Source of the DNA: Armatimonadota bacterium
GTDB taxonomy: Bacteria > Armatimonadota > UBA5829 > JAUSEB01
Assembly: GCA_030649165.1 (NCBI GenBank)
Contig: JAUSGG010000009.1
Location: 1 to 41,564 of the forward strand
Direction of reading: 5' to 3'
Length of the DNA stretch: 41,564 bases
Numbering within the stretch: position 1 is the stretch's first letter; each line of letters begins with the position of its first letter. Positions 5,769 to 37,901 of the stretch are shown here, one piece after another. The position numbers were made by a program, and so were the translations under genes. Below the pieces are notes generated by a model that was given only the letters and a program-made list of their open reading frames with translations, searched no databases and was not told where the DNA came from.

Positions 5769-6806
5769 CTAACCGTTGAGCTTCTTGCTGGGAGCTACCA
5801 ACTCTTCAAGGGGGCCGGAGGCCATTACCTTGCGCCTGAGTCTGCTCCACCACTCGGTGTTCTGTTCGTACCAGCTCACGGTCTTCCACAGACCTTCGTT
5901 GAAGACCGTCTTCGGATGCCAACCGAGAAGCCGGTTCGCTTTTTCGCAGGTTCCGCGGTGGCAATCGACCTGGCCGGGACGATCCGCGACCCAGTTGATC
6001 AGGCTCTCGGGTTTGCCCAACAGCTTCAGAATGCCGAGGGCGATCGTGTAGATATCGGTGTCGATACCGGTGGCAAGGTTGATGACTTCGCCTTTGAGCT
6101 TGTCGATAGGCGCGTCGAGCATCATGATCAGCGCGTCCACGTGATCGTCAACGTACAGCCAGTCCCGCGAACTCTTTCCCGTGCCGTGCAATTGGAACGA
6201 CTTGTCCTGGAGGCATTGGGTTATGACGTGCGGGATCAGCTTCTCCACGTGCTGACGCGGGCCGTAGTTGTTGAACGGTCGCACGATGAGCGCCGGAATC
6301 TGGAACGTGCAGACGTAGGAGTATACCAGCCTGTCACCGCCGCACTTGGCGCTTGCGTAGGGGCTGCGCGGATTGAGCGGATGGTCTTCGTCCATTAGAT
6401 GGGCGAGCGCCGTGCCGTAGACTTCCGACGTGGAAATATGGATGTAACGGTCCACGCCGTTGTGCCGGATGGCGTCGAGGAGGATTTGCGTGCCTTTGAC
6501 GTCCGTGTCCACGAAATCATCGGTATTGTAGTTGTGGATCGAGTTGTCAACGTGGGTTTCGGCGGCGAAATGCACTACAGCGTCCGATTGCGCGACGAGC
6601 CGCTCGACGACCGTTCGGTCCAGAATGGACCCGTGCCAGAAGAAGAAGCGCGGGCTGTTCCACACCTCCGGCAGGATGTTGTCCAGATTGCCCGCATAAG
6701 TCAGCGAGTCCAGCATCAGGACCTGGTCCTCCGGACGTGTCTTGATGATACGCTCCGCGAAGTGGCTTCCGATAAAGCCGGCGCCACCGGTCACTAGTAT
6801 TTTCAT
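5769..6806 (-). CDS. rfbB: dTDP-glucose 4,6-dehydratase-like SDR
   Basis: A 345-residue extended short-chain dehydrogenase. It opens with the Rossmann motif MKILVTGGAGFIGSHF, carries STSEVYG at about 127-133 and the catalytic SPYASAKCGGDR (Tyr-x3-Lys) at about 150-161, and has NNYGPRQHVEKLIP typical of RmlB. The expected reaction is dehydration of an NDP-glucose to the 4-keto-6-deoxy sugar, which the next enzyme (DegT family) can aminate. Start ATG 6806 is preceded by GGAGG at six bases. Assigning RmlB over other NDP-sugar dehydratases is strong by motif, but the nucleotide is not proven. Confidence 0.85.
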   Translation of the reverse strand: MKILVTGGAGFIGSHFAERIIKTRPEDQVLMLDSLTYAGNLDNILPEVWNSPRFFFWHGSILDRTVVERLVAQSDAVVHFAAETHVDNSIHNYNTDDFVDTDVKGTQILLDAIRHNGVDRYIHISTSEVYGTALAHLMDEDHPLNPRSPYASAKCGGDRLVYSYVCTFQIPALIVRPFNNYGPRQHVEKLIPHVITQCLQDKSFQLHGTGKSSRDWLYVDDHVDALIMMLDAPIDKLKGEVINLATGIDTDIYTIALGILKLLGKPESLINWVADRPGQVDCHRGTCEKANRLLGWHPKTVFNEGLWKTVSWYEQNTEWWSRLRRKVMASGPLEELVAPSKKLNG

Positions 6807-6821
6807 TCAATGCCTCCAGTA

Positions 6822-6920
6822 TGAGTCGGATGAGTCGAGGGCTCAGACGTTACCACCCGATGCCCCCCTCATAACCCTTATAACCCTAAAACCTTATGAA
6901 CCTACGAACCTCCGAACCTC
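6822..6920. repeat. Composite micro-repeat: GAGTCGRAN array plus AGGGTTATA array
   Basis: On the plus strand, two GAGTCG units (6822-6842) are followed by a tract of CCCTTATAA-like units and degenerate AACCTnCG units (about 6866-6920). The second tract runs through the stop codon into the last codons of the aminotransferase gene, so it encodes the VRRFVGS tail. The same two-part arrangement occurs at several other gene ends. Confidence 0.7.
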
Positions 6921-8069
6921 GTCCGCATGCTCGAATATCGAAAGAGCGGCGTCGGATATGCGCTCCACGAGTTCTGTGCTCATGTGGTTGTGGAGCGGCA
7001 GACAGAGCGCTCGGTCGCTTATCTCCTCGGTGACGGGCAGGGCCGGCCTGTCCGCAAGATACGCCTTCTGACGATGTATCGCGGGATAGAAATACTTCCT
7101 CGTCATAATGTTCTCTTTGGCCATAGCCTCGTGCAGTTCGTTCCGCGACAGGCCGGCGTCGGACTCGTCTACCAGAATTACGAAATTCTGGTAACTAGGC
7201 CGCGCGTCCTCATCGATCTTTTGAAACCGCACGCCCGGGACAGCGCCGAGCTTCGACCGGTACAGTTCGACGCATCTCGCACGCTGTTCGATATTGTCGT
7301 CCAGCCTCTTCAATCCGTCAAGTCCAAGTATAGCAGAGAACTCCTGCATCTTGGCGTTCGTGCTGGGAAACGCGCAGTCGTGGTCCCCGTAGTCACCGAA
7401 GACTCGGGCCGCGCGAATGTCCCGCGCCAGGTCTTCGTCGAAAGTCGCCACGCCTCCTCCTTCCGCCATAGGCAGAGTCTTCGTCGCGTGGAAACTGAAG
7501 GATTCGGCGTCGCCGTACCCGCCGATCTTACGCCCCTTGTACGACGCGCCTATCGCGTGCGCCGAATCGAACAGCAGCCTGACATTCGCGGACCGGGCAA
7601 GCCTTTCCAGCGGCTCGATATGGCAGGGATTGCCGAAGACGTGCACCGGCATTATCGCGGCGGTCTCATCGGTAATCAAGCCCTGTGTGGTCTCGGCAGT
7701 TATATTCCACGTTTCCGGATCGACGTCGGCGAAGACCGGCGTAAGACCCGCGACCGCAATAGCGTGCGCCGTCGCTACGAACGAGAAACTTGGGCAGATC
7801 ACCTCGCCTTTCGCCCGCCATCGCTCCAATATGAGCTGGAGAGACAGCGTGCCGTTGGCCGTGGCGATAAAGTCCGGTCCGTCCAGATAGCCGCGCATCT
7901 CCGCTTCCAACTCCCGAACGAATCTGGAGTTGTTGGTAACGTTCCCGGAGACCAAAGCCTCGTTCAGCGAGCCGGCAATGTCCTCCAGCTTGGGAAAAGC
8001 CGGTCCGACGATATTAAGCATAAGATCGAACTCGGGAGGCCCCCCGAGCGCCGCGGGCAGTTTAGCCAT
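6894..8069 (-). CDS. DegT/DnrJ/EryC1/StrS aminotransferase
   Basis: A 391-residue PLP enzyme of the sugar aminotransferase family, expected to aminate the 4-keto sugar made by the adjacent dehydratase. The PLP lysine lies in FSFHATKTLPMAEGGG (residues about 197-212), preceded by the Asp/Ser/His segment LLFDSAHAIGASYKG and the ANGTLSLQL phosphate-cup motif. The C-terminal FYPAIHRQKAY segment is typical of the family. Together with the nucleotidyltransferase and the 4,6-dehydratase it would make a 4-amino-4,6-dideoxy sugar such as viosamine, an inference from gene order. The final residues are encoded by a micro-repeat. Confidence 0.88.
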   Translation of the reverse strand: MAKLPAALGGPPEFDLMLNIVGPAFPKLEDIAGSLNEALVSGNVTNNSRFVRELEAEMRGYLDGPDFIATANGTLSLQLILERWRAKGEVICPSFSFVATAHAIAVAGLTPVFADVDPETWNITAETTQGLITDETAAIMPVHVFGNPCHIEPLERLARSANVRLLFDSAHAIGASYKGRKIGGYGDAESFSFHATKTLPMAEGGGVATFDEDLARDIRAARVFGDYGDHDCAFPSTNAKMQEFSAILGLDGLKRLDDNIEQRARCVELYRSKLGAVPGVRFQKIDEDARPSYQNFVILVDESDAGLSRNELHEAMAKENIMTRKYFYPAIHRQKAYLADRPALPVTEEISDRALCLPLHNHMSTELVERISDAALSIFEHADEVRRFVGS

Positions 8070-17019: not shown

Positions 17020-18159
17020 CTATTTCATGCGGCGTCTGGAAAGAAAGCCGATGAAACCGAACAGACCGCTTCCGAGCGCGAACAGGCTGGAGGGCTCGGG
17101 GACAGGGTTCCACAGTGTCGCGTGCTGAACGCCATTGCGCTCAGCAGAGCCAACCACCGTATAGAGATCGTTGATCGCGTCCGCATACGTGCCGTATCCG
17201 ATGTTGTGCGTACCATCCTGGAACGTACCGAGATCGCTCACGTACCCTTGTCCGTCGCTGACACCGCCGACATACGCGTGGCTATCCGGGGACGAGGACG
17301 CGTAAAGACCAACCACCGCACCCTCGTCGTTGATCCCCTGAGCGTTCGCATTCCCGCCTTGGGGCATAATATACTTTGTGCCGTTCTCCCAGAGGAACCC
17401 CGCGCTGCCGCCTCCGTAACCTGATGTGCCGGCTATCTGGCGATGGTTGTTGATGTCGTAGCCGTTGCTCCATGTGTTGTTCAATGAGCCAAGGTCCGTG
17501 ATATTCCCATTGTTCTCCCAGAGGAATCCCCGGCTCCCAGCACCCAGGAACATTGTGCCGACTACGTCGCCGGCGTCGTTGATGCCGTAGGCTATGCTGT
17601 TGGGGGCCATGTTTGTCAGCTCCCGCATCGCTTGAGTGACGGGATCCCACAGGAATGCGGAGAAGGTAGTGCTTATGGGCGAGAATCCGTTGTTCGCAAT
17701 ACTCCAGGTACCACTGCCTGAATAGCCGACCACCTGGCCAGAGCTGTTGATGTCCCAGGCGAAGCTCCAGGTGTCCGTCGTACGCAGCTTTCCAAGATTC
17801 TGCGTAGCGCCGTCAGGCTTCCAGAGGTACGCCTGCATCTCGGCACCCGAGGCCCGGCCGCCGACTACCTGACCCGAGTAGTTGATCGCTTGAGCGAAGC
17901 TCGTGCCGCCGACACGCGAATCCAGATCCTGCATCTGGTTGTTCTGCCAGAGGAACGCGTGACGGTCACCGCCGCCGGTGACCAATGTGCCGACTACCTG
18001 GTTCCGGTTGTTGATATCGTGGGCCACGCCAGGCCCCAGATCCATGATCGGCACACCAGTAGTGGATAGCGCGGCTCCGGCTCCGGCGCGTAACCCTACC
18101 ACCATGGCTATTACCATGGCTCCGACAAATACTGCTCTTACCATTCCTTGTTTCATCAT
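17020..18159 (-). CDS. HAF-repeat PEP-CTERM exported protein
   Basis: A 379-residue secreted protein. Residues 1-30 form a signal peptide (MVRAVFVGAMVIAMVVG...AGAGA). The body is made of about seven repeats of the HAF type (for example GDRHAFLWQNNQMQDLDS, INNRNQVVGTL, INDAGDVVGTM), which build a propeller-like extracellular domain. The C-terminus, VPEPSSLFALGSGLFGFIGF followed by SRRRMK, is a textbook PEP-CTERM signal: the PEP motif, a hydrophobic helix and a basic tail, to be processed by an exosortase not encoded here. PEP-CTERM proteins are normally tied to EPS production, which fits the adjacent polysaccharide cluster. The start has GGAAGAGG ahead of two successive ATG codons. A remnant duplicate of its 5' end lies upstream. 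Confidence 0.88.
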   Translation of the reverse strand: MMKQGMVRAVFVGAMVIAMVVGLRAGAGAALSTTGVPIMDLGPGVAHDINNRNQVVGTLVTGGGDRHAFLWQNNQMQDLDSRVGGTSFAQAINYSGQVVGGRASGAEMQAYLWKPDGATQNLGKLRTTDTWSFAWDINSSGQVVGYSGSGTWSIANNGFSPISTTFSAFLWDPVTQAMRELTNMAPNSIAYGINDAGDVVGTMFLGAGSRGFLWENNGNITDLGSLNNTWSNGYDINNHRQIAGTSGYGGGSAGFLWENGTKYIMPQGGNANAQGINDEGAVVGLYASSSPDSHAYVGGVSDGQGYVSDLGTFQDGTHNIGYGTYADAINDLYTVVGSAERNGVQHATLWNPVPEPSSLFALGSGLFGFIGFLSRRRMK

Positions 18160-23163: not shown

Positions 23164-23272
23164 TTGGCGGTTAAAACCACGGCTACAATCACACGAAGTC
23201 GGCCTGCGCCGACTGCCCCTTCAATCCCTGAAGGGGGATTTTGTGTCTTTGTAGCCGTGACTTCAGTCGCCG
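23164..23272. repeat. MITE-like element that ends the bioH-like gene
   Basis: The ends GGCGGTTAAAACCACGGCTA and TAGCCGTGACTTCAGTCGCC are imperfect inverted repeats. Inside are AGTCGGC/GCCGACT and CCCCTT/AAGGGG hairpins. The right end supplies the last codons (Gly-Asp) and the TGA stop of the hydrolase gene at 23263. Confidence 0.7.
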
Positions 23273-23994
23273 GGAGGTCTGATCAAACCCATGATCTCCT
23301 CCGCGTTCGTCTCCGGCAGCACGTGGCCTGCGTCCGCCAGGACGCGCAACCGCGCGTTTGGCAGAACGCGAGCCAGCTCTTCCCCGGCGGCCAAAGGCAC
23401 GATCGCGTCGCGCTCGCCGTGCGCCAGCAGGACCGGCGCGCGGACGTTCCTCAGAACGCCTCGAAGGTCGGCGTACAGCAGATAGGTCAGCCCGAGGCGA
23501 AGCTGCTCCGGCGTGGCCTCCATCGCGGCGGCGATTTTCGCCCTGAGCTCGTCCGCCCGCGGCCTTGCCGGATAATAGCAGCTAATCAGAAACCGGCGAA
23601 TCGTGTCCGCCCCCGGATCGGTCTTCATGGCCTCGACCTCCTCAGGCGATGGTCCGAAAGGCCGCGACTCGCCCGAGCAGAACCTGGCGGTCGCGGACAA
23701 AAGAACGAGACTTAGGACCTTCCGGGGTTGGGCCGCCGCCAGCTCGATGGCCGCCATAGCCCCCATCGACCAGCCGACGATCGCAACGGGTTCCGGCTCA
23801 TTCTCAATCCGCCGACCGAGCGCGGGGCCGTATATCGCGCTGCACGGCCCGGCCTCCGTCCATTCGGAACTGCCATATTCGGGAAGCCAGATCACTTCGA
23901 CCGGAGAGACGGCTTTGAGTTTTCTCACCAGTTCGCAGTCGCCGCCGCGAGGCCCCGCCCAACCGGGGATATACCAGACTTTGCCGCCGGTCAC
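23263..23994 (-). CDS. bioH: Alpha/beta hydrolase, BioH-like pimeloyl-ACP methyl ester esterase
   Basis: A 243-residue alpha/beta hydrolase. The nucleophile elbow is VGWSMGAMAA (Ser at about 75), the acid is in LLAHGERDAIVP (about 192-203) and the catalytic His in LADAGHVLPETN (about 219-230). The size and the short N-terminus (VWYIPGWAGPRGGD) fit BioH-type esterases, which release pimeloyl-ACP from its methyl ester before BioF acts. Position supports the role: its GTG start overlaps the bioF stop by four bases (GTGA). The 3' end lies inside a MITE, which may have altered the C-terminus. Other small esterases remain possible. Confidence 0.75.
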   Translation of the reverse strand: MTGGKVWYIPGWAGPRGGDCELVRKLKAVSPVEVIWLPEYGSSEWTEAGPCSAIYGPALGRRIENEPEPVAIVGWSMGAMAAIELAAAQPRKVLSLVLLSATARFCSGESRPFGPSPEEVEAMKTDPGADTIRRFLISCYYPARPRADELRAKIAAAMEATPEQLRLGLTYLLYADLRGVLRNVRAPVLLAHGERDAIVPLAAGEELARVLPNARLRVLADAGHVLPETNAEEIMGLIRPPGD

Positions 23995-25163
23995 AGGATT
24001 CCGGCCCCGCGTCCGGTATAAACGAGGACTTCCAGCGCCTCGTCCAGGTCCGCTTCATCGTGCGCCAGCGTTACGGAAAGTCGAAGCCGCGCCGTGCCCA
24101 CGGGCACGGTCGGCGGCCTTACCGCCACTGCCAGGACGCCGCGCTCCGACAGCGACCGCGACCACGCCACGGCCTTGTCGTTGTCGCCGACGATGATCGG
24201 AATGATCTGCGAGCGCGAGCCGAGCATTTGGAACCCGGCGTCGCTCAGCCTCTTGCGGAAATGCTCGGCCCTATGCAGAAGTTCGGCGCCTAATCCCGGC
24301 CGCGCGCGCAGCAGTTCCAGGGCCGCCAGAGCGGATGCCGCGGAGGCCGGGGGCAGGCCGGTCGTATAGATGAAGCTCCTGGCGCGGTTGAGCAGAAGAT
24401 CGCGAAGCGCCCGCGATCCCGCGATGAACCCGCCGCACCCGCCCAGCGCCTTGCTGAGCGTTCCCATGTGCGCGAGAATCCCGCAATCGGGGTCCGCCGC
24501 TTCCGCGACGCCGGCGCCGTTTGCGCCGAAAACGCCCGTCGCGTGGGCCTCATCGACCATAAGCGCCGCGCCCCGCCGCTCGCACACGTCGGCGATCTCG
24601 CCGATCGGCGCAATCTCGCCGTCCATGCTGAACAGCGTGTCGGTGACGACCAGCCGCCGCCTGAACGCCGTCTCCGACGCGAGCATCGAATCCAGGTCTT
24701 CCGGATCGCAATGCCGGTATCTGAAGAGTTTCGCGCCGCTCAGTGAGACGCCGTCGATCATGCTCGCGTGGTCGAGCCGGTCGCAAAAGACCGCGTCGTC
24801 GCGCCCGACCAGCGCGCCGATCGCGCCCACGTTGGCCATATAGCCGCTTGTGAAGACGACCGCCGCCTCACATCCCTTGAACGCCGCCAGATTTCGCTCC
24901 AACTCGTCGTGCAGGTCCGCCGTGCCGGCCATCAGCCGCGAAGCCGTGGCCCCGCAGCCGTAACGGTCTATGGCGTCCTTGGCCGCCCGCGCAAGCTCCG
25001 GAGCGGCGGAGAAGTTCAGGTAATCGTTGGAGGAGAAATTGAGCACGGTCCGCCCGTCCATTTGGAACTTGCCGCCCAGGGAAGGCAAGGGCCGGACGTC
25101 GCGGCGGATCCCGCGGCTCTCAAGGTCCGCCAGGAGATCGGCGATCCAGGACTCATGGTCCAA
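23991..25163 (-). CDS. bioF: 8-amino-7-oxononanoate synthase
   Basis: A 390-residue PLP enzyme of the alpha-oxoamine synthase family, condensing pimeloyl-ACP (or CoA) with L-alanine in biotin synthesis. The PLP lysine is in GTLSKALGGCGG (about 232-243), with VDEAHATGVFG (about 205-215) and the N-terminal NFSSNDYLNF plus GCGATASRLMAGT substrate motifs. It overlaps bioB by 11 bases and the bioH-like gene by four, so the three form a tightly coupled operon. Distinction from KBL/serine palmitoyltransferase rests on this context. Confidence 0.93.
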   Translation of the reverse strand: MDHESWIADLLADLESRGIRRDVRPLPSLGGKFQMDGRTVLNFSSNDYLNFSAAPELARAAKDAIDRYGCGATASRLMAGTADLHDELERNLAAFKGCEAAVVFTSGYMANVGAIGALVGRDDAVFCDRLDHASMIDGVSLSGAKLFRYRHCDPEDLDSMLASETAFRRRLVVTDTLFSMDGEIAPIGEIADVCERRGAALMVDEAHATGVFGANGAGVAEAADPDCGILAHMGTLSKALGGCGGFIAGSRALRDLLLNRARSFIYTTGLPPASAASALAALELLRARPGLGAELLHRAEHFRKRLSDAGFQMLGSRSQIIPIIVGDNDKAVAWSRSLSERGVLAVAVRPPTVPVGTARLRLSVTLAHDEADLDEALEVLVYTGRGAGIL

Positions 25164-26118
25164 AGTCCACCTCCAGGTCCCTGAGAAGCTGCAAATCCCG
25201 ATGGAGTGGACGCCCCGCCCTGGTCAGGTAATCGCCGACCATCATCCCCGTGGCCCCCGCGTAGAAGAACATCGACTGCAGGTCGCGGAGGAGGTCCTCG
25301 CGCCCCGCGCAGACCTTGATCTCCGGCGACCGGCAGACCAGCCGGAACATGGCCACGGTCTTAAGTATATCGAGCGGCTTCATCGGCGGGCTTCCTTCGA
25401 GCGGTGTGCCCGGAATCGGCATCAGAAAGTTGAGCGGAATCGACTGGACCGCCTCGTCGCGCAGCGTCATCGCCAGCTCCACGCGCTGCTCGGGAGTCTC
25501 GCCCATTCCGAAAATGCCGCCGGAGCAGACCTCCAGGCCGGCCGCCCGTGCCCGCCGCAGCGTAACCAGCCGATCGGCGAACGTGTGGGTGGAGCAAATG
25601 GACGGGAAGAAGCTTTCCGCTGTCTCCAAGTTGTGATGATACCGCACCAAGCCCGCCTGTTTCAGACCGCGAAGCTGCGATTCGTCGAGCATACCCAGCG
25701 ACGCGCAGGGGATGACGCCGCATTGCTCCACGGTCGGCACGGCGGCGCATACCGTCCGGACGTCCCGGTCGTCCAGGCTGCCCCCGCTGGTGACGACGCC
25801 GAAATGGCTGATCCGGTTGGCCTGCACGGCTTCGCGGGCGGCGGAGGCGATCTGCTCGCGCGAGATCATTGGAAACGCCTCGATCCCCGTCTGATGATGC
25901 GCGGACTGCGCGCAGAACGCGCAGTCCTCCGAACACTCCCCGCACCGGGCGTTCAGGATGGAGCACAGTATGACTGCGTTGCCAAAATAACGACGGCGCA
26001 CTTCGCTCGCGGCGTGGAGAAGCAGCGGCATGTGCTCCGGCTGAGCGTTGAGCACAGCCAGGGCCTCATCGGGGCTGAGAATCTGATCGGGGGCGATTTT
26101 ATCGAGCAGCCATTGCAT
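25153..26118 (-). CDS. bioB: Biotin synthase (radical SAM)
   Basis: A 321-residue radical SAM enzyme inserting sulfur into dethiobiotin. The 4Fe-4S motif is CSEDCAFCAQS (CxxxCxxC) at about 59-69, followed by the biotin-synthase features GVVTSGGSLDDRD, YHHNLETAESFFPSICSTH and CSGGIFGMGET. The C-terminal FYAGATGMMVGDYLT carries part of the 2Fe-2S/Arg site region. It is the first gene of the bioB-bioF-bioH operon; bioA, bioC and bioD are not in the window. Start ATG 26118 has no Shine-Dalgarno sequence, and a promoter just upstream would give an almost leaderless mRNA. Confidence 0.95.
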   Translation of the reverse strand: MQWLLDKIAPDQILSPDEALAVLNAQPEHMPLLLHAASEVRRRYFGNAVILCSILNARCGECSEDCAFCAQSAHHQTGIEAFPMISREQIASAAREAVQANRISHFGVVTSGGSLDDRDVRTVCAAVPTVEQCGVIPCASLGMLDESQLRGLKQAGLVRYHHNLETAESFFPSICSTHTFADRLVTLRRARAAGLEVCSGGIFGMGETPEQRVELAMTLRDEAVQSIPLNFLMPIPGTPLEGSPPMKPLDILKTVAMFRLVCRSPEIKVCAGREDLLRDLQSMFFYAGATGMMVGDYLTRAGRPLHRDLQLLRDLEVDFGP

Positions 26119-26276: not shown

Positions 26277-27209
26277 TTAAGCTCCCGGCTTGGCGAAATC
26301 GTGCCTGCCGAAACGCATGTGGCACGTCGCGCAAGTCGCGCCGGCCGGAGCCAAAGGAGCGTGAGTCTTCATATCCTTATTGGTATGGCAGCCGGCGCCG
26401 GTGCACAGCTCAACGATGGGCTTGCGGAGCTGCGTCGGCTGAGTCGTGTTCGCGCCGTGCGGCTCGTGGCACTTAACGCAGGTGACTCCCGCCGGCCCAG
26501 CGTGCTTGCTCGTCTTCCATTCCGAGTACTGCTGGTTGCGGCCCGCCGTCTTAGGCTGCGCGTCGATAAACGCCTGGGCCAGATCACCGCCGGGCTTATA
26601 GGTGATCGGGAACGCGTAGGCCTTCGTAGTATCGGTACCCTTGGAATGGCACTGCCCGCAGACCATAGCTTCCTTGTCCGGCGTCAGTTTCTTCGGGTTG
26701 ACGATCTTCGTCTTATCGGCCAAGTGCGCCGAACCGGGGCCGTGACAGGCATCGCAGTTCACGCCTTCTTCCGCCCACGTGGCTTTGGCGGCGTCATAGC
26801 CGGTCACGTGACAGCCGATGCACTGTGTCTTGGCGTCCTGGACGCTCGTCGTGACCCACTTCTTTTCCGTGACGCTCCACTCCGCGGGCAGGGTCTTCAT
26901 GTCGGCGCCGATGTACGCCTGGCCCCTCTTGCCGACGCCCAGCACGTACTTGATGTCCGCCGCTTTGACCGGAGAATTGGCGTCACATACGGCAACGACG
27001 GCCGCGGGATTCTTGGCGGCATCCTGCAGGGCCTTCGGGTGCGCAATCTTATCGAAGCCCTGGACGATGGCCGGGTGCATCGCCGTATGACACATCTTGC
27101 AGGTTTTCGAAGCCTTGTAATCCTGCGCGAACGAGGCTCCAACAAGCAGCAGTCCAAACGCGCAGATCAGCGCTGCGACGATTACTGCTCTTAGTTTGAG
27201 ACTTACCAT
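26277..27209 (-). CDS. Periplasmic heptahaem-type cytochrome c
   Basis: A 310-residue exported cytochrome. A signal peptide (VSLKLRAVIVAALICAFGLLLVGASFAQ) is followed by six CxxCH sites (CKMCH, CIGCH, CDACH, CGQCH, CVKCH, CATCH) and one unusual CTGAGCH (C-x4-CH). CDACHGPGSAHL resembles the cytochrome c554/NrfB-like haem environments. ATG 27209 is chosen because AAGGAGG lies upstream and the signal peptide then starts normally; the frame is open ten more codons to 27239. It is the most downstream member of the cytochrome cluster and could accept electrons from the larger cytochromes. Confidence 0.85.
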   Translation of the reverse strand: MVSLKLRAVIVAALICAFGLLLVGASFAQDYKASKTCKMCHTAMHPAIVQGFDKIAHPKALQDAAKNPAAVVAVCDANSPVKAADIKYVLGVGKRGQAYIGADMKTLPAEWSVTEKKWVTTSVQDAKTQCIGCHVTGYDAAKATWAEEGVNCDACHGPGSAHLADKTKIVNPKKLTPDKEAMVCGQCHSKGTDTTKAYAFPITYKPGGDLAQAFIDAQPKTAGRNQQYSEWKTSKHAGPAGVTCVKCHEPHGANTTQPTQLRKPIVELCTGAGCHTNKDMKTHAPLAPAGATCATCHMRFGRHDFAKPGA

Positions 27210-27317
27210 CAGAGAAATCGACCTCCTTAATATATCCATTGTTCATTACCGCACAAGTCTAAATGCCGAACGGCATCACCTCCTAAAGTACAACGTCACG
27301 CGCTCTGAAAAGTAACG

Positions 27318-27461: not shown

Positions 27462-28370
27462 CTATCCCGATCCGTGGCAGCGCGAGCAGAACTCCTGCTT
27501 GCTGTGACACTTGAAACAGGGCGACCCCTCCGCAAGGCTCGCGCCCTTGCTCTTGTGCTCCATCATCCAGCCATCGGGATGCGGCATCGCCGTGCCGTGG
27601 CAGGAGTCGCAGAACCTGGCCTTGTCGTGACAACTCTCGCACGAAGCCACGTCCGGCTTGGCGGTCTTGCCGTGCGCCTTGGCCCAGTCCGCGGCGGAGT
27701 GCGATGACGGCCGCGGCGACGCCCCGGCGTGACACTTCTTGCACAGGTCGCCCTTAGGCGCCGTCAAAAGCTTCGGATTGCCGCTTCCGTGCGGAGTGTG
27801 GCACGAGGAGCACATCAGACCATTCGGCAGCTTGTGGTGCTTCCCCTCCTTGGCGCTCTGCCAAGTCCCCTGGTGACAGGGCCGGCAGACTTCCGCGGGC
27901 GGGCGTTTCAACAGCGTCTTCTGATCTACGGGCCTGTGGGGGTCGTGGCACAGGAGGCACGTCATCCCGGTTTTTCCATGGGCGCCGGCGTTCCACAACT
28001 CCGCTTTGACCTTGGGACGGTGGCACTTGAGACAAATGGCGTTAGTCGTCTTAGGATCGATATTGTCAAAACTGATGATCTTCTTGCGGTTGCCGGACAC
28101 ATGGGCGGCTCCGGGTCCATGGCACGCTTCGCAGCCGCCTTCCCCGGTTTTCTTGGCCCCCGCGATGAGCCGCTTGCTGTGAGGCAGGGTCGCCCAGTTC
28201 TTGGCGAACTTGATGTGGCACTTCAAGCACACTTTATGGCCAACATAACCGGCTGACACGGCGGCGGGTTTGGCCGGGCCGGCCGTCATCCCCACGCCGC
28301 AAAGCGCGGCCGCGAGCGTCGCCGCGACGGTGAGTCCTCTAATGGCAGTTCGAACAATACTTCTTCTCAT
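27462..28370 (-). CDS. Eleven-haem cytochrome c, DmsE/MtrA-like
   Basis: A 302-residue exported cytochrome with 11 CxxCH motifs. The first seven follow the DmsE/MtrA decahaem pattern (VCLKCH, then GCEACHGPGAAHVSG, CLKCH, TCLLCHDPH, CRPCH, MCSSCHTPHGSG, LCKKCH). The last four (CESCH, CDSCH, CFKCH, CSRCH) are in closely spaced pairs like those of the 28-haem protein. MtrA-type proteins carry electrons across the periplasm or through a porin. ATG 28370 is preferred to TTG 28409; it overlaps the 3' end of the upstream cytochrome gene by 32 bases in another frame. The signal peptide is RSIVRTAIRGLTVAATLAAA. Confidence 0.83.
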   Translation of the reverse strand: MRRSIVRTAIRGLTVAATLAAALCGVGMTAGPAKPAAVSAGYVGHKVCLKCHIKFAKNWATLPHSKRLIAGAKKTGEGGCEACHGPGAAHVSGNRKKIISFDNIDPKTTNAICLKCHRPKVKAELWNAGAHGKTGMTCLLCHDPHRPVDQKTLLKRPPAEVCRPCHQGTWQSAKEGKHHKLPNGLMCSSCHTPHGSGNPKLLTAPKGDLCKKCHAGASPRPSSHSAADWAKAHGKTAKPDVASCESCHDKARFCDSCHGTAMPHPDGWMMEHKSKGASLAEGSPCFKCHSKQEFCSRCHGSG

Positions 28371-30282
28371 GGCACCTGAAACAGATAGAGTTCTGGGAGA
28401 AATCGGCAACCTTTTTGTGTCCGGTCAGCGTCCAGTTCGCGGGATGCGGCATGGCCGTCTTATGACAGTTCGAGCAGAATCCTTCACGGTGGCACGTAAG
28501 GCACGACTTCGAGCCGCCGCGCGCTTGCTTGCCGTGGGCGAGTTTCCACTGCTGGTTGTGCGACGCGGGTTTTACCTTGCCCGACCTGTGGCAATTGTCG
28601 CAGTGCGACTTATTATGGCAGAAACTGCAATGGTTCGGGTCCTTACGCGCTTTGATCTTGTGATTCCTCATCCAGGAAAGGTTGTGCGACGAAGGCCGCG
28701 CGTTGCGGTGACACGAGACGCACAGACCCTTGGTATGACAATTGGAACAGACGGCGGTCGGCCGATCGGCGAACGAACCGTGCTGGGAAATCCAGTTCTC
28801 GTTATGAGACGTCGGCCTGCTCGCCCGATGACAGGCGTTGCAGAACATAGTGTCGTGGCATCTGTCGCAGAGACCCCGGTTTTCCTTAGCGGCCTTACGA
28901 TGCTGCGCGCGCCACGTGCTCGGATGAGGCATCTGCAACCCGTGGCATCGAGCGCACGCCTCCTTCTCGTGGCACACCTTGCAGGGGGCGTCGCTCCTGG
29001 ACGCGTCAACTGCGTGAAGCCTGCCCCAGTTGACGTTGTGCGTGGCCGGCCTGCGCGTCCGGTGACAGCTCATGCAGAAGTCGGGCTTGTGGCACGTGAC
29101 ACAGGTTCCGGCCGACGAGCTGACCCTCTGCCCGTGATTGTGGAGCCAGCCCGCGCCTGAGTGCGACAGCGGGACCTTGTTCGAGTGGCATCCGATGCAG
29201 AACTGTTCGGCGTGGCAGGTCTTACAATTGCCGGGCCTGCTTTTTGCCTGGCCGGGATGGCGCTGCAGCCAGTCAGCCGGGTGCTCCTTGTACCGCTTGT
29301 GGCAGTCGTTGCAGAAGCTTCCGTGGTGGCATTTGTCGCAGGCTTGAGGATCGTCTCGGAATACGTTCGGGTGTTTCGAGATCCAGTCCATCGCATGGGC
29401 GCGTCTGATCTTGTGACACTCGCCGCAGAAGGTTTCCTGGGTCTCTTTGGCGTGGCACACGGCGCAGCGTTCCGGGTCTCTTTTGAACTCCCGCGGATGC
29501 GTCGGCAGCCACTTCGCGGGATGCGGTGTGGCAAGCCTGTGGCAGCTATCGCAGAAGTCTTTCTGATGGCACCTAACGCACGCGTGCGAATCCTTCGACT
29601 CCTGCTTGTGCCCCTCGACCCACTCAGGACTGAACGGCGTCACCTTACGCTCGCCAAGCGTCTCGTGACACAGGCCGCAGTGGTTGCGCGCCTTCTTGCC
29701 GTCGTGGCACTTGAAGCACGTCGTCATGGACGGGGTGTTCTTCGTTGCAGCGTTTTGGCCGTGAACGACGCGGTCGTGGCAGAACGTGCACTCTATGCCG
29801 CGGTCCCAGTGTTTCCGGTGGCTTATCTTAAGGCCGTGGTAGACGACGGTCTCCCTCGTCTCCGGGTGGCATTTTCTGCAGTTGACATCCGGCACGTGAC
29901 CCTGGATCGCGCTGGGTTTGACGTCGGCCTGCATGTGAACGTAGATCTGACGCAGCGCGGACGTCTTTGTCTTGACCATGTTCACGATGCCCGGCATGAC
30001 GTGGCAGTCTTCGCACCCGACGTTCTTGTGCGAAGACACGTTCCATGTCTTATAGTGCTGGCTCATCTCGTGACAGGATGTGCAGAATACGGGCTCGTTG
30101 GAATGTCGGAATCCGGCGTACGCCCCGCCGAGGGCCACGAGCGCCGTCAATACGATAGCGCCTGTGCCGACCTGCCACCGCGTGCGGGGGATTCTGCGAG
30201 GCTTGGTCCAAATCTCCCAGAATCTCTGTCTGTTGATCTTCCGCAGCGCCGTTCTCAGGCGCGCCAATCTACCTATCCGCAT
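28339..30282 (-). CDS. Giant 28-haem cytochrome c with NapC/NrfH-like N-terminus
   Basis: A 647-residue protein. An N-terminal basic stretch and one transmembrane helix (about 38-60) lead into EPVFCTSCHEMSQHYKTW, the NapC/NrfH/NirT signature, with VGCEDCH next. I count 28 CxxCH motifs in all. From about residue 225 onward they come in pairs six to eight residues apart (for example CKTCHAEQFCIGCH), repeated about every 40-48 residues with PxSHxxxW-type spacers, ending in CSNCH at the stop. This is a membrane-anchored linear haem array, expected to take electrons from quinol through the NapC-like part and carry them over a long distance. A MITE lies just upstream of its start. Confidence 0.88.
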   Translation of the reverse strand: MRIGRLARLRTALRKINRQRFWEIWTKPRRIPRTRWQVGTGAIVLTALVALGGAYAGFRHSNEPVFCTSCHEMSQHYKTWNVSSHKNVGCEDCHVMPGIVNMVKTKTSALRQIYVHMQADVKPSAIQGHVPDVNCRKCHPETRETVVYHGLKISHRKHWDRGIECTFCHDRVVHGQNAATKNTPSMTTCFKCHDGKKARNHCGLCHETLGERKVTPFSPEWVEGHKQESKDSHACVRCHQKDFCDSCHRLATPHPAKWLPTHPREFKRDPERCAVCHAKETQETFCGECHKIRRAHAMDWISKHPNVFRDDPQACDKCHHGSFCNDCHKRYKEHPADWLQRHPGQAKSRPGNCKTCHAEQFCIGCHSNKVPLSHSGAGWLHNHGQRVSSSAGTCVTCHKPDFCMSCHRTRRPATHNVNWGRLHAVDASRSDAPCKVCHEKEACARCHGLQMPHPSTWRAQHRKAAKENRGLCDRCHDTMFCNACHRASRPTSHNENWISQHGSFADRPTAVCSNCHTKGLCVSCHRNARPSSHNLSWMRNHKIKARKDPNHCSFCHNKSHCDNCHRSGKVKPASHNQQWKLAHGKQARGGSKSCLTCHREGFCSNCHKTAMPHPANWTLTGHKKVADFSQNSICFRCHEKKYCSNCH

Positions 30283-30441: not shown

Positions 30442-31377
30442 TTACTTGCCGCCCGTAGGATTGGGGATCTTGCCATTGCCGTCCTCCACCAGACTCGCGG
30501 CGATCATCTCTTCGTATTCAAGAGGATGATGGCTCATCATTTTAGACTTCGTTATTTTGCCGGTCAGCCAGGTCTTGCTCATCGGGAAGCAATCCGGACT
30601 GAGATGAACGTTATAGAAATGCCAGACAATAATCGCCAACGTGGCGAGCAGGGCCTCGTCGCTGTGGGCCTCGCGCGCCATGTCCACGGCGAACTTAGGG
30701 AGCAGACGCATAGTGGCGTCCTCGAACCACAGCATCAACCCGGACGTGATCATGACCACCATGCCCCAGTACACGGCCCAGTAGTCGAACTTCTCGATGT
30801 AGCTGAAGCGGCCGAACCGCGCTCCCTGTTTGGCCAGACCGAGGAAGTAACGAACGTTCCCGATAACGTCGAAGACGTCCTTCGGCTTGGGAATGAGCTG
30901 GCGAAACTCGCGCCGCCCCTCGGCGGTCAGCGTGATATAGCACATGTGGGCGACGCCTACGATAATGAGAAGCGTCGCTCCGATCCGGTGGAGCAGCCCG
31001 CTGGCCGGCACCCCGCCCAGGATCGAGAAGAAGAACGCCGCCCAGTGCGTGTTCGGGAACTTCAACGGCAGCCCCGTCAGGATCAGGATGATACAACTGC
31101 TGAACAGTAGAATGTGCTGTATCCGGAACTTCAGGCTGAAGCGCTCGATCTCTTCCTCTTTGGCCTGCGCGGCGGTCGGGGTCTTGCGCGCCGCGGCCCT
31201 GGCCTTCACGGCCCTGGACAACCGCTGCCTCATCTCCGCCGCAAGCTGCTCCCTTATCTCTCGCTCCGCCTCCGCGACGACTTCGGCGTCCGCGAGCGAC
31301 TGAAGCTCCCGTGCAGTCGAGGCCATCTGCTCGTCAAGGCTCCGACGTTCGTTTTCCGGTTTCTTTGAGCCGGCCAT
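30442..31377 (-). CDS. Cytochrome b/b6-type membrane subunit with coiled-coil N-terminus
   Basis: A 311-residue di-haem-type cytochrome b. Residues 1-85 are charged and helical (repeated Glu/Arg/Ala), probably a cytoplasmic coiled coil, which its paralogue lacks. Four transmembrane helices follow, with candidate haem-ligand histidines in RIQHILLF, GLLHRIGA, VAHMCYIT and IVWHFYNVHL. The C-terminus FPMSKTWLTGKI...HPLEYE is shared with the neighbouring cytochrome b. Its expected role is to oxidise menaquinol and pass electrons to the multihaem partners. Start ATG 31377 has GAGGAG ten bases upstream; GTG 31395 is an alternative. Confidence 0.82.
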   Translation of the reverse strand: MAGSKKPENERRSLDEQMASTARELQSLADAEVVAEAEREIREQLAAEMRQRLSRAVKARAAARKTPTAAQAKEEEIERFSLKFRIQHILLFSSCIILILTGLPLKFPNTHWAAFFFSILGGVPASGLLHRIGATLLIIVGVAHMCYITLTAEGRREFRQLIPKPKDVFDVIGNVRYFLGLAKQGARFGRFSYIEKFDYWAVYWGMVVMITSGLMLWFEDATMRLLPKFAVDMAREAHSDEALLATLAIIVWHFYNVHLSPDCFPMSKTWLTGKITKSKMMSHHPLEYEEMIAASLVEDGNGKIPNPTGGK

Positions 31378-31573: not shown

Positions 31574-32257
31574 TCAGTCCTCAGTCCTTCCGACGATCTT
31601 CTCGTACTCCAGCGGATGGCGCTCCTTGAGCTCATGCTCGCTGATGCGTCCCGTAAGCCAGACCTTGCTCATCGGGAAGACCTCGGGGTTCAAGTGGACG
31701 TGGTACAAGTGCCATATCACTATCGCCAGGAAGGCCAGAACGGCTTCGTAACTGTGCACGATAGTCGTAACGTCCATCAGCCACTTCGGCAGAACCATCA
31801 TCGCCTGGTCCTCGAACCAGAGTATGAGACCCGTAAGAACCATCACAAAGGAGCCCCAACCCATAGCCAGGTACTCGAACTTTTCGATGAAGTTGAACCG
31901 GCCGAACCGGGGCTTTTGCATCGACAGCCCGATGTAGTACCTGAGCATGCCGATCATATCTTTGATATCTTTGACGCCGGGGATCATCTCGCCGAAATCG
32001 TCGCGACCTCTCCGGCTGTAGAGCACGTAGAAGGCGTGATAAACGCACACGCCGATCAACATCAGCGCCGCCACGCGATGCAGCGCCGCGCGGACCGTCA
32101 TCCCGCCCATAGACTGTACGACCGCGCGAGACGCCGGGGATTCCGCGAATAACACCGGCATCCCGGTTATTATCAGCAGGATGAAACTGGTCATAAGGAC
32201 TATGTGCTGGATTCGCTGGCTCAGGCTGAACCGCTCGAAATACCGCATCTCTTCCAT
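31574..32257 (-). CDS. Cytochrome b/b6-type membrane subunit
   Basis: A 227-residue four-helix cytochrome b. Candidate haem ligands lie in RIQHIVLM, ALHRVAAL, CVYHAFYVL, VHSYEAVL and IWHLYHVHL. The C-terminus FPMSKVWLTGRI...HPLEYE matches its paralogue at 30442. Its ATG shares one base with the stop of the preceding 11-haem cytochrome (TGATG) and has GGAGG eight bases upstream, so the two are translationally coupled and likely form one quinol-oxidising complex. A longer open frame upstream (to 32671) is out of frame with the cytochrome it overlaps and is spurious. Confidence 0.88.
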   Translation of the reverse strand: MEEMRYFERFSLSQRIQHIVLMTSFILLIITGMPVLFAESPASRAVVQSMGGMTVRAALHRVAALMLIGVCVYHAFYVLYSRRGRDDFGEMIPGVKDIKDMIGMLRYYIGLSMQKPRFGRFNFIEKFEYLAMGWGSFVMVLTGLILWFEDQAMMVLPKWLMDVTTIVHSYEAVLAFLAIVIWHLYHVHLNPEVFPMSKVWLTGRISEHELKERHPLEYEKIVGRTED

Positions 32258-33528
32258 CACCGAGCCCTCCCGCCGCGTTTTCGCACTCTGGAGAATATGT
32301 CCAGCAGTATATAAAGAGCAAACGACCCTATCAAGCCGACGATGAAAACGGTGTAGAATATCCGGACCCAGTACACTCCCTTGTCTCTTTTCTCGCTCGG
32401 CTCCAGGTGGACGCTTCCCTTGGCGAAATTCTCGCCGGCGCCCGGATGGCACTTGCCGCAGGTCCTGGGCAGATTGCGCTTGTTGGTCATCGAATGCGGA
32501 TCGCTCGACGGCAGAATGCCGTGCGAGCCGTGGCAGGTCGCGCAGTTCGCGACCGTGGTCTCGCCGAACTTGTTCGCCACCCCGTGGTAGCTGCCGATAT
32601 ACGTCTTGAGCCGGTGGGCCGGCAGCCCGAATCGCTTCTGGACGCCCGCGCTTTCGTGACACTTGGAGCAAGTGGCGACTACGTGAGTCGGATAAACGCT
32701 CGACCCCGGCTCGGTTGGCCGCTCGATACCGTGCTCGCCGTGGCAGTTCGTGCAGACTGGAGCGTCCTTGACGCCTTGAGCTACGGCCCTGCCGTGGATG
32801 CTCTTCTTATATTCCTCAAGTATCTTCTTGTGGCACCTGCCGCAAGTTCCCGGAATGTGTTTCTTGTTCACGGTAGACATGGGATCCGCCGCGGCTTTGA
32901 TCGTATGCCCGCCGTGGCAGTCCGTGCACACGGCGGCCGCGATCAGCCCCTGGCCGCTTACCGCCTTGCCGTGCACGCTTTTTTCGTAGAGCTGGTATGG
33001 CCGCTTGACCGGTATCTTGTGCTTTCTCGCCATGCCGGCGTCACTGTGGCACTTGCCGCACGTGTCCGGAATGTTGGCTCGGTAGATGGAGGACCTGGGG
33101 TCGGTATGCGCCCGGATATCGTGTTCTCCGTGGCAATTCTTGCACCTGGGAGCGTCTTTGTCGCCGCGTTTCACCGCTCTGCCATGGACGCTGTCCGCAT
33201 ATTCGGTCATCGGACCGATGTTCGGAGCGCCCATCGGATTTCCCATGAAGTGGCAGCCGCTGCATTTCACGGGAACCGCGGACCTCTTGTGCGGGAAGGT
33301 CTGGCCTCGCATATCGATATGGCAATCCGTGCAAAGCCTCGCGCCGTGGACCGATTGTCTGAAAGCCTGATCGTCGATATGCAGCGAGATGACGGACCCG
33401 TCCGGCAGCCTCTTGCTCAGACCCGGAGCGCCATGACACATCAGGCACTTAGCATTGTCCGCCGCGAGCGCCGGCCCGGCAAACACCGTCACTATCAGGC
33501 AAACGAGCAGCAGCCTCCCTGGTTTCAT
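32257..33528 (-). CDS. Eleven-haem membrane-anchored cytochrome c
   Basis: A 423-residue cytochrome. A signal peptide (MKPGRLLLVCLIVTVFAGPALA) is followed by 11 CxxCH motifs in repeats of the form CxxCHGEHxI...SSVY...TCGKCH...S(V/I)HG, and a single C-terminal transmembrane helix (about 388-410) with a basic cytoplasmic tail. It is a tandem paralogue of the nine-haem gene upstream; both share SYHGVANKFG and NKRNLPRTCGKCHPGA-type sequences. Coupling to the cytochrome b gene suggests that the helix docks onto that subunit. Confidence 0.88.
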   Translation of the reverse strand: MKPGRLLLVCLIVTVFAGPALAADNAKCLMCHGAPGLSKRLPDGSVISLHIDDQAFRQSVHGARLCTDCHIDMRGQTFPHKRSAVPVKCSGCHFMGNPMGAPNIGPMTEYADSVHGRAVKRGDKDAPRCKNCHGEHDIRAHTDPRSSIYRANIPDTCGKCHSDAGMARKHKIPVKRPYQLYEKSVHGKAVSGQGLIAAAVCTDCHGGHTIKAAADPMSTVNKKHIPGTCGRCHKKILEEYKKSIHGRAVAQGVKDAPVCTNCHGEHGIERPTEPGSSVYPTHVVATCSKCHESAGVQKRFGLPAHRLKTYIGSYHGVANKFGETTVANCATCHGSHGILPSSDPHSMTNKRNLPRTCGKCHPGAGENFAKGSVHLEPSEKRDKGVYWVRIFYTVFIVGLIGSFALYILLDIFSRVRKRGGRAR

Positions 33529-33584: not shown

Positions 33585-33685
33585 GAGTCGAAAGAGTCGG
33601 ACGAGTCGAAGGAGTCGAAGGTGGTTTCCCCCCTCTCACTCCGACCCTTATAACCCTTATAACCCTTATAACCCTAAAACCCTAT
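33585..33685. repeat. Composite micro-repeat, clearest copy
   Basis: Four GAGTCGRAN units (33585-33620), a 22-base spacer, then four CCCTTATAA/CCCTAAAA units (33643-33685). The stop codon of the nine-haem gene (TAG, 33682-33684) is the first TAGGGTTTTAGGG unit read on the minus strand. Confidence 0.75.
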
Positions 33686-34863
33686 CCCCGCCGCCGTCGA
33701 TACTTAGCCATCAAGTCAAGAGCGATGTGGCCGACCAACATAATCATCGTCATAATAGTCAGCCACTTGAAGCCGTTGCTGACATAGTATAACAGACTCT
33801 GTTCTTTCTTAGAGATGATGACGTGTATCTTGCCCCGGGCGAAGTTCTCGTTGGCGCCGCGATGGCATTTGCCGCACGTGTGGGGCAAATTCCTCTTATT
33901 GACGCTCGACTTGGGATCGTCCGACCGCCGGATGGCGTGCGCCTCGTGGCAGCTTGCGCAGTTGGCGACGGTCTTGGTCCCAAACCTGTTGGCGACTCCG
34001 TGGTAGCTTTCGCGGTAGGTCTCGTATCTTTCCCTGGCCAGTTTGTACTTGTCCTCGATCCGCTGCGAGGCATGGCACTTGGAGCAGGTCTCGGGAACTT
34101 TCGTAGCGTAAACGGACGAAAGCGGGTTGCGGACCGCCTTTATGCTGTGCTCGCCGTGGCAGTCAGTGCAGACCGGCACGTCCCGGTTTCCCCGCGCCAG
34201 GGCCTCGCCGTGCACGCTTTCCCGGTAGTCACTGTAAATGTCGATGTGGCATTTTCCGCAGGTCCCCGGAACGTTCGCGTGGTACACGGAAGACCTCTTG
34301 TCCCTGGGATAGAAGATGTCGTGCGAGCCGTGGCAGTTCTGGCACGTCGGGGCTTTTGTGTTTCCCGTCGCGAGCGCGGCCTTGTGTACGCTCTCACGGT
34401 ATTCGGCGGGCTTGCGCGGCATACGGGTTCCGGCGATATCTTCCACATAATGGCACCGGCCGCAGTTGACGCGCTCCGCCGTTTTGCCGTGAGGGATTTG
34501 CTTTATATCGGTGTGGCAGTCGGTGCACGTCCTGACCGCGTGGACCGTCTCGTTGAAAACCTCCGGATCGACGTACAGCGATATCGTCCTGCCGTCCGGG
34601 AACCGCTTCTTCAGAGCGGGATCCTCGTGGCAGCCCAGACACACGGAGTTGTCGTCGGGACCTTTAAGCTGAACCGGTATGGGCGCCGACCATGCCACTG
34701 AGCAGACCAACCCTGCCGCGATCGTCAAGACGATCAAAAGCAGGCGGCCCGCGCGGACGCGGACGGAGGTATTATTCTTATAGCTAAGTCCCAATGCCGG
34801 CTTTCCCTGTTTACGAAAGTAGGGGCGAACCTTGTGTTCGCCATCGAACTTGCGCGATCTCAA
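33682..34863 (-). CDS. Nine-haem membrane-anchored cytochrome c
   Basis: A 393-residue cytochrome with nine CxxCH motifs and a C-terminal transmembrane helix (about 360-385) followed by KYRRRRG. It is the first gene of the cytochrome cluster and a paralogue of the 11-haem protein, one repeat shorter. The start is unclear: no ATG exists. TTG 34863 has GAGG four bases upstream, but its first codons run through a dispersed hairpin repeat (EHKVRPYF). TTG 34794 would begin directly at the signal peptide (AGRLLLIVLTIAAGLVCS). Two cytochrome b genes lie downstream. Confidence 0.85.
   Translation of the reverse strand: MRSRKFDGEHKVRPYFRKQGKPALGLSYKNNTSVRVRAGRLLLIVLTIAAGLVCSVAWSAPIPVQLKGPDDNSVCLGCHEDPALKKRFPDGRTISLYVDPEVFNETVHAVRTCTDCHTDIKQIPHGKTAERVNCGRCHYVEDIAGTRMPRKPAEYRESVHKAALATGNTKAPTCQNCHGSHDIFYPRDKRSSVYHANVPGTCGKCHIDIYSDYRESVHGEALARGNRDVPVCTDCHGEHSIKAVRNPLSSVYATKVPETCSKCHASQRIEDKYKLARERYETYRESYHGVANRFGTKTVANCASCHEAHAIRRSDDPKSSVNKRNLPHTCGKCHRGANENFARGKIHVIISKKEQSLLYYVSNGFKWLTIMTMIMLVGHIALDLMAKYRRRRG
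34824..34842. repeat. GGCGAAC hairpin repeat
   Basis: GGCGAAC-CTTGT-GTTCGCC, with flanking TAGG/CATCG, is a short palindromic repeat lying in the disputed 5' end of the nine-haem cytochrome gene. Confidence 0.55.
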
Positions 34864-36835: not shown

Positions 36836-36894
36836 ACCTAAGAACCTATGAACCTCACAAACCTCATAAACCCCATAAACCTCATAAACCTACC
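36836..36894. repeat. AACCTCATA tandem repeat at a gene 3' end
   Basis: About six 9-base units of the AACCTCATA/AACCCCATA type run into the stop codon of the PEP-CTERM gene (TGA within TTTATGAGG on the minus strand). Confidence 0.65.
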
Positions 36895-37901
36895 CGCCGC
36901 CGGCGCCTGGCCGCAACCAGCCCCGCAAGAGACGCCAGCGCGACGAGAGCGGAGGGCTCCGGCGTCTCCGTGGTCGCAACGAGGCCGACGGGGTTGCCCT
37001 CGGTGTCGTAGACTCCGCCGACGTTCACCCCAAGAAGTCCGGTCGCCTCGTTGTAACGCAGCGTGGTAAGCCAGTAGTAGCCTTGCGATGCGTTGGCGGT
37101 CGTCAAGAGGCTCTGCGAGCCGTCCGACACTTTCCAAATCGACGCCGGAAACCCCTGAGATGTGCTATAGTATAGGTTACCGGCAGCGTCGAAGGTCATC
37201 GAACCCACGTTATCCGTTCCGCTGACGACAACGGTCGCATTGGAGGCTGACAGGGATGCCGAGCCGCCGATGGCCTGATCAAGCAGGTCGGAGCTCCAGG
37301 ACAGGATGCTCTGTGTTCCGGTGGCGGACCAGTCCGATGTGGCAGTGCCGTAGTACAGCGCGCCATCCGCGCCTACCGCGAGCGGACCGGCCGGACCGGA
37401 GACGCTGCCGAACATATACGCGCTGCCGCTGAGCGGGTCTATCGAGTACAGGTTCGTGCTGCTCCAGTCCAGGCTCCCCGCGCTGACCAGGAGCCGGCCC
37501 GTGGAGTCGATCGCCATATCGTAGTTATTCGTGAGCGCGGTGAGCAAATGAGCGTCGCTGCCGTCCGAGTTCATCACGTTGATGGTCCCGGTGGAGCTTT
37601 CGCCGAAGTAGATCTTGCCGGACACCGGGTCGCGCTTCAGGAACGAGCTTGCCAGTGTGGTCGAAGTGGAATACAGCGACACGCTCCCCGACCCGCTTAC
37701 CTCTACGACGTCGTTTCCGGCGTAGGCAATGATATTGCCGTTGGCCGCGTAGTCGAAACCGCCCATATAGGCGTTCCATCCCGTTCCGGTGACCGGGACA
37801 TAGGTCTCCGAGATGGAGTTGTTCAGGTAGCCGGCCTGGGCAGCGCCGCACAGCAGCAGGGCGACCAGCGCCGGCAAGACGATAAACACAATCTTCTTCA
37901 A
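36882..37901 (-). CDS. PEP-CTERM beta-propeller-like exported protein (BtuG-like candidate)
   Basis: A 339-residue exported protein. A signal peptide (KKIVFIVLPALVALLLCGAAQA) precedes repeated motifs such as GGFDYAANGNIIAY, KRDPVSGKIYFGES, DMAIDSTGRLLVSAG, PLAVGADGALYYG and SMTFDAAGNLYYS. These have the pattern of beta-propeller blades (NHL/SMP-30/YncE-like). The end, TPEPSALVALASLAGLVAARRRRR, is a PEP-CTERM sorting signal. The start is TTG 37901 with GGAGAG seven bases upstream. It is the third exported gene downstream of the cobalamin riboswitch. The surface B12-binding BtuG of Bacteroidota is also a propeller, which suggests but does not prove a cobalamin role. Confidence 0.82.
   Translation of the reverse strand: MKKIVFIVLPALVALLLCGAAQAGYLNNSISETYVPVTGTGWNAYMGGFDYAANGNIIAYAGNDVVEVSGSGSVSLYSTSTTLASSFLKRDPVSGKIYFGESSTGTINVMNSDGSDAHLLTALTNNYDMAIDSTGRLLVSAGSLDWSSTNLYSIDPLSGSAYMFGSVSGPAGPLAVGADGALYYGTATSDWSATGTQSILSWSSDLLDQAIGGSASLSASNATVVVSGTDNVGSMTFDAAGNLYYSTSQGFPASIWKVSDGSQSLLTTANASQGYYWLTTLRYNEATGLLGVNVGGVYDTEGNPVGLVATTETPEPSALVALASLAGLVAARRRRRVGL

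Follow-up and report, generated by a model that had tools for sequence, protein, structure and literature searches.

A 28-haem NapC-headed cytochrome of Armatimonadota and its cable, a two-haem repeat found on several respiratory complexes

Results

The window analyzed here (the whole stretch of 41,564 nucleotides, contig C210) comes from a 5.48-Mb, 99% complete Armatimonadota MAG (genome label G000). At positions 28339 to 30282 it contains, on the minus strand like all window features given below, an intact open reading frame (ORF) of 647 amino acids with an ATG start and a stop codon immediately 3' of the final CxxCH motif. The encoded protein has 28 CxxCH motifs, no CX3CH or CX4CH motifs, and no cysteine outside the motifs. 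An origin of these motifs by chance or artefact was rejected, since 2,000 shuffles of the sequence yielded a mean of 0.47 and a maximum of 4 CxxCH motifs, and intact homologues were found.

The gene is surrounded by further cytochrome genes. Upstream lie genes for a 9-haem cytochrome (33682 to 34863) and an 11-haem cytochrome (32257 to 33528), each with a CbcL-type haem domain and a C-terminal transmembrane (TM) helix, and for two cytochrome b561-type membrane subunits matching PF01292, b561A (31574 to 32257) and b561B (30442 to 31377, start putative). Downstream follow an 11-haem DmsE/MtrA-like cytochrome gene (27462 to 28370; TIGR03508, E value of 4.5e-40, below the cut-off) and a gene for a 6-haem periplasmic cytochrome (26277 to 27239) that is a recurrent neighbor of cable genes. 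The start of b561A overlaps the end of the CbcL-type 11-haem gene, and the DmsE/MtrA-like gene, read from its likely ATG, shares 32 nt with the 28-haem gene; because of these overlaps, an operon is likely. No outer-membrane porin was found in the window and no terminal reductase beside the 28-haem gene. Biotin-synthesis-like genes (BATS/radical SAM, class I/II aminotransferase, alpha/beta hydrolase) lie directly 3' of the cytochrome cluster (23263 to 26118), and genes for two PEP-CTERM proteins flank the region (17020 to 18159 and 36882 to 37901).

The arrangement upstream of the gene recurs in relatives. A CbcL-like haem subunit and b561 are encoded directly upstream of the cable gene in 15 of the 17 NapC-cable loci with usable flanks, and in six relatives the two form one chain, the counterpart of the 11-haem cytochrome being fused to b561 in L035, L041, and L047 and that of the 9-haem cytochrome in L039, L040, and L096. 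A haem domain and b561 in one chain is the known CbcL layout (PMC6295460).

A sequence-only reading of the window had described a NapC/NrfH-like membrane head joined to 28 CxxCH motifs in a single protein, and this was borne out by the intact ORF, the motif count, and comparisons of the N-terminal part (residues 1 to 188; 29719 to 30282). This part consists of a single TM anchor, a hydrophobic stretch at about residues 38 to 58, and a four-haem domain with motifs at residues 67, 90, 135, and 165. Residues 42 to 175 match the NapC/NirT family PF03264 (E value of 7.4e-12; 45.8 bits versus a cut-off of 24.1), and the nearest solved chain is NrfH (2j7a; E value of 1.4e-11); against the NrfH equivalog TIGR03153, the protein scored 57.2 bits, below the cut-off of 134.2. 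The first haem is of the Met type (CTSCHEM at 67 to 73), and M73 is conserved in 15 of the 16 aligned homologues. Of the NrfH residues that we take to form the quinol site, Lys82 and Asp89, the former corresponds in the family alignment to K106 (present in 14 of these 16) and the latter to Q112. Since the Asp89 position is a glutamine here and is not conserved among the homologues, quinol oxidation by the NapC head is uncertain.

The remaining part of the protein, termed the cable here (residues 189 to 647; 28342 to 29718), carries 24 haem motifs in 12 two-haem modules, as delimited from the motif layout and the module alignment. Haems 5 to 28 form 12 pairs, with start-to-start spacings inside pairs of 9 residues in ten of them and 13 in two, and the density is 19.1 residues per haem, compared to 23.1 for the whole protein. 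The tight CxxCH pairs at a regular repeat that the first reading had noted are thus present, with a measured pair-to-pair distance of 38 to 46 residues in place of the 40 to 48 given there. Each module consists of the CxxCH pair, a proline-rich turn, a histidine, a W-x3-H motif, and a basic linker, and the consensus is CxxCH-x4-CxxCH-x4..7-(P)-x0..2-H-x3..5-W-x3-H. Two distal histidines with an aromatic residue between them (H-x3..5-aromatic-x2..4-H) were found in 210 of 230 modules from 24 family proteins; most exceptions are first modules, in which the second histidine alone is kept. Bis-His ligation requires two distal histidines per pair of haems, and this pattern suggests that the haems may be ligated in this way.

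The modules of the 28-haem protein are 23 to 45% identical to each other, which agrees with the proposed internal duplication of a two-haem module, with the qualification that the duplication is not recent. Modules 1 to 5 and the last two are closer to the modules at the same positions in closer homologues than to their own neighbors; the middle modules are interchangeable, and differences in array length fall among them. A recent tandem duplication was rejected, since the end modules match those of homologues position by position. Because the end modules are position-orthologous and the middle ones vary in number, the array appears to be old, with length changes in the middle. The last two pairs (residues 594 to 647; 28342 to 28503) form a position-conserved terminal cap, or tip, and the same two-pair cap ends the neighboring DmsE/MtrA-like 11-haem protein (27465 to 27640).

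No well-fitting Pfam or NCBIfam model was found for the cable alone. Assignment to the doubled-CXXCH repeat PF09699 was rejected (11.0 bits versus a cut-off of 20.6; E value of 0.35), and the triheme nanowire domain TIGR04257 did not match the cable. The cytochrome c7 family PF14522 scored 30.3 bits against the whole cable (cut-off of 24.8), with its best stretch restricted to residues 415 to 454, and 17.3 bits against a six-module part; the cable repeat has two haems, whereas the c7 layout has three. A cable profile gave only marginal matches to solved cytochromes, the best being flavocytochrome c3 (E value of 5e-4). Structure prediction gave no usable structure: an AlphaFold2 model of the full-length protein from a three-sequence alignment had a pLDDT of 33.8 and was unusable, and a model of a three-module fragment (12 in-register rows; pLDDT of 56.2) showed helices only and had no Foldseek match in the PDB.

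The length of the cable can be estimated from known conduits, in which MtrA covers 80 angstrom with 10 haems and MtrCAB covers 185 angstrom with 20 haems (PMC7198977). If the haems are packed linearly and as in MtrCAB (about 9 angstrom per haem), 28 haems would reach roughly 250 angstrom. This would be comparable to the width of a Gram-negative periplasm.

Relatives were found in 39 of 291 genomes of the phylum (E value of ≤1e-30) and cable modules in 48 of 291. Of the 18 distinct NapC-headed cables, ten have 28 haems; the others have 32 (three cables), 30 (one), 25 (two), or 20 (two). All 28 motifs are kept in nine further homologues, which belong to other genera and are 41 to 53% identical to the window protein. 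In two variants with 26 haems (L098:4881-7259 and L081:16634-19000), a long additional multihaem part lies between a NapC-like head and a cable tail. A search of genome contigs gave matches in two Armatimonadota records only, and a search of plasmid sequences with the cable gave none.

Beyond what the first reading had described, the cable is common to several respiratory complexes, and the source genome contains three versions of it. In type B, cytochrome b (PF00033/PF00032), cytochrome c, and the cable form one chain, usually encoded beside a Rieske gene; such loci comprise L045 in the source genome and at least eight more. The source-genome locus (contig C187; L045:5679-8403) is a two-gene Rieske/cytochrome b-c complex whose chain ends in a 14-haem cable, and genes like these are frequent in the phylum. 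At a further locus (L087:5117-7891 and 6661-7689; G064:C525), a single gene is split into two overlapping frames, one for cytochrome b-c and one for its cable, through either a frameshift or an assembly error. In type C, a cable protein of 18 to 21 haems is encoded directly after FeS, NrfD, and molybdopterin genes (L046 in the source genome, L049, and L085), and at a contig edge (L083), a cable protein follows a molybdopterin gene. The operon in the source genome (contig C216; L046:4003-9578) ends in a 21-haem cable protein; the type C molybdoprotein is nearest to the Thermus thiosulfate/polysulfide reductase 2vpw. In type D, cables without a NapC head lie behind CbcL/b561 (L081, L088, L093, L094, and L100). 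Cable proteins of L020 and L059 carry a lipoprotein-type signal, as judged by eye. The three cables of the source genome have 28, 21, and 15 haems, and because of this difference the idea that each spans the same gap fits poorly.

These loci bear on where electrons enter. One alternative is that the NapC head is itself the quinol dehydrogenase, making the protein a giant analogue of CymA or ImcH, with the CbcL/b561 neighbors as parallel, separate enzymes. A PF03264 score well above the cut-off and the retention of M73 and K106 would fit this; the loss of the NrfH Asp89 position and the near-constant CbcL/b561 neighbor speak against it, as does type D, in which CbcL/b561 and a cable are present but the NapC head is missing or a lipoprotein signal stands in its place, and we regard this alternative as rather unlikely. 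The gene content of type D suggests instead that the cable can do without a NapC head and may receive its electrons from CbcL/b561.

Exchange of the cable between complexes was examined in a tree built from the final five pairs in each of 46 cables. The tree is not sorted by head type (16 changes versus a minimum of 5), and even on strongly supported branches alone, type B requires at least five changes. In several cases, cables with different heads from one genome pair in the tree (A_L036 with B_L048, A_L081 with D_L081, and the B and C cables of both G000 and G001). Across heads, the last two pairs are 52.0% identical within genomes and 43.0% between genomes, a difference reached in 0 of 2,000 label shuffles in a modest sample in which relatedness was controlled in part only. 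For the three pairs before the tip, the values are 39.4% and 37.3% (55 of 2,000 shuffles). In G001, the last two 40-column blocks are 88% and 68% identical, compared to 32 to 38% for the three upstream blocks; in the source genome, the tip of the NapC-type cable is only 46 to 48% identical to its B and C tips. We interpret the likeness of tips within genomes as the result of either a common docking partner or gene conversion at the ends, and the comparison is a hint toward the former.

The cable clusters L038, L039, and L097 also encode a DmsE/MtrA-like decahaem cytochrome and a barrel-like protein, two of which weakly match the GSU2204 family. On contig C77 of the source genome (L106:5953-9398), a 10-haem DmsE/MtrA-like gene is followed by a gene for a 726-amino-acid barrel-like protein with a signal peptide (GSU2204 family, 4.6e-7, far below the cut-off), and this pair is a candidate outer-membrane porin-cytochrome of the source genome. 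Contig C200 (L107:1809-6163) encodes 6-haem and 8-haem cytochromes followed by a 564-amino-acid barrel-like protein, possibly a second porin-cytochrome cluster.

Discussion

On balance, we consider it probable that the 28-haem protein is a single-chain, inner-membrane-anchored haem relay that spans much of the periplasm and connects quinol-oxidizing complexes to outer-membrane conduits. Oxidation of menaquinol would probably take place at the neighboring CbcL-like multihaem/b561 complexes and possibly also at the NapC head. The four-haem head would take up the electrons, which would then hop through the approximately 24 putative bis-histidine haems of the old two-haem repeat; the conserved C-terminal tip would hand them to a partner of the DmsE/MtrA type and on to an outer-membrane porin-cytochrome. 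In Armatimonadota, the cable may be an interchangeable module used by NapC/CbcL, by Rieske/cytochrome b, and by PsrABC-like molybdopterin complexes alike. More tentatively, from the intermixed tails and similar tips, it is conceivable that several unrelated quinol-oxidizing complexes carry one exchangeable cable whose tips are alike within each genome since all of them dock on one acceptor in the periplasm or the outer membrane; the complexes would then be hard-wired to the cell surface without diffusing carriers.

Three other functions have to be weighed against such a relay. The protein might run inwards, with an outer-membrane oxidase, for example, of Fe(II), feeding electrons to quinone. 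Complexes of the CbcL/MtoC type are known from Fe(III) reducers as well as Fe(II) oxidizers (PMC6295460), and uptake has been proposed for the large cytochromes PCC3 (PMC10734462, PMC5566968); the sequence does not fix the direction, but attachment to Rieske/cytochrome b favors outward flow without proving it, and we think uptake unlikely. A role mainly as a periplasmic electron store, or capacitor, for times without an acceptor would account for 24 extra haems in one chain and has been discussed for large PCC3 cytochromes (PMC10734462). The conserved head and tip, the strict pair repeat, and the linkage to quinol complexes favor directional use, and storage as the main role seems quite unlikely, even if the two roles are not exclusive. 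Finally, a multihaem donor of the NapC/NrfH type could serve periplasmic reductases (of nitrite, sulfur compounds, etc.) without an outer-membrane link. The type of head, the window without a porin, and the cable in an operon with a PsrA/PhsA-like molybdoprotein are in line with this, but no terminal reductase lies beside the window gene, MtrA-like and barrel-like genes do lie beside cables in L038, L039, and L097, and a similar pair is found elsewhere in the source genome, which makes a reductase donor very unlikely.

The proposed periplasmic relay resembles several known systems in part. With NapC/NirT/NrfH proteins, including CymA (4 to 5 haems), the 28-haem protein shares the TM anchor, the four-haem head, and the Met-type first haem; the additional 24-haem repeat array is found in the latter only. 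ImcH of Geobacter likewise combines a NapC-like region with extra haems and is linked to extracellular electron transfer, but a CX3CH motif and three TM helices are found in ImcH homologues, which carry 6 to 10 haems (PMC6295460), whereas the 28-haem protein has one TM helix, 28 CxxCH motifs, and no CX3CH motif. The neighboring 9-haem and 11-haem cytochromes and b561 subunits resemble a split CbcL. Members of the CbcL/MtrH/MtoC group are single chains in which a multihaem N terminus is joined to about six b-type TM helices, with CbcL homologues reaching 23 haems (PMC6295460); the 28-haem protein lacks a b561 domain and represents an additional cable behind a CbcL-like module.

A further parallel is PCC3, with 21 to 27 haems, sequence repeats, a low residue-to-haem ratio, and a proposed span across the periplasm (PMC10734462, PMC5566968). 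The 28 haems and 23.1 residues per haem of our protein fall within the range of PCC3 "wires" (about 21 or more haems; 22 to 39 residues per haem [PMC5566968]), but the porin, extracellular cytochrome, and 5-TM inner-membrane protein of PCC3 clusters are absent from the window. In addition, PCC3 is described as a separate periplasmic subunit, whereas the cable is covalently anchored and common to several inner-membrane complexes. Among Rieske complexes, the two-gene Kuste3096-3097 of Kuenenia has cytochrome b fused to a dihaem c domain (PMC12954380), compared to cytochrome b, cytochrome c, and 12 or more cable haems in type B of Armatimonadota. Type C shares FeS, NrfD, and molybdopterin-type subunits with PsrABC, Qrc, and ACIII; Qrc and ACIII have a multihaem subunit alongside an NrfD-type complex (PMC8076601), with 6 haems in QrcA, whereas the type C operon is followed by a cable protein of 18 to 21 haems.

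Periplasm-spanning multihaem wires such as PCC3 are thus already known, and it is the plug-in architecture that is new. In the literature searched, we found no cable of 20 to 32 haems covalently anchored by a NapC head, no single cable on three kinds of quinol complex, no tips alike within genomes, and no earlier report of Armatimonadota lineages as candidates for extracellular electron transfer. In the well-studied metal reducers, electrons cross the periplasm on small soluble cytochromes, a step that a cable built covalently onto a quinol-oxidizing complex would replace. One cable common to several complexes would allow respiratory chains to be rewired through the exchange of domains, and the number of modules would offer a natural ruler for wire length against periplasm width. 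With these proteins, several Armatimonadota lineages become candidates for extracellular electron transfer.
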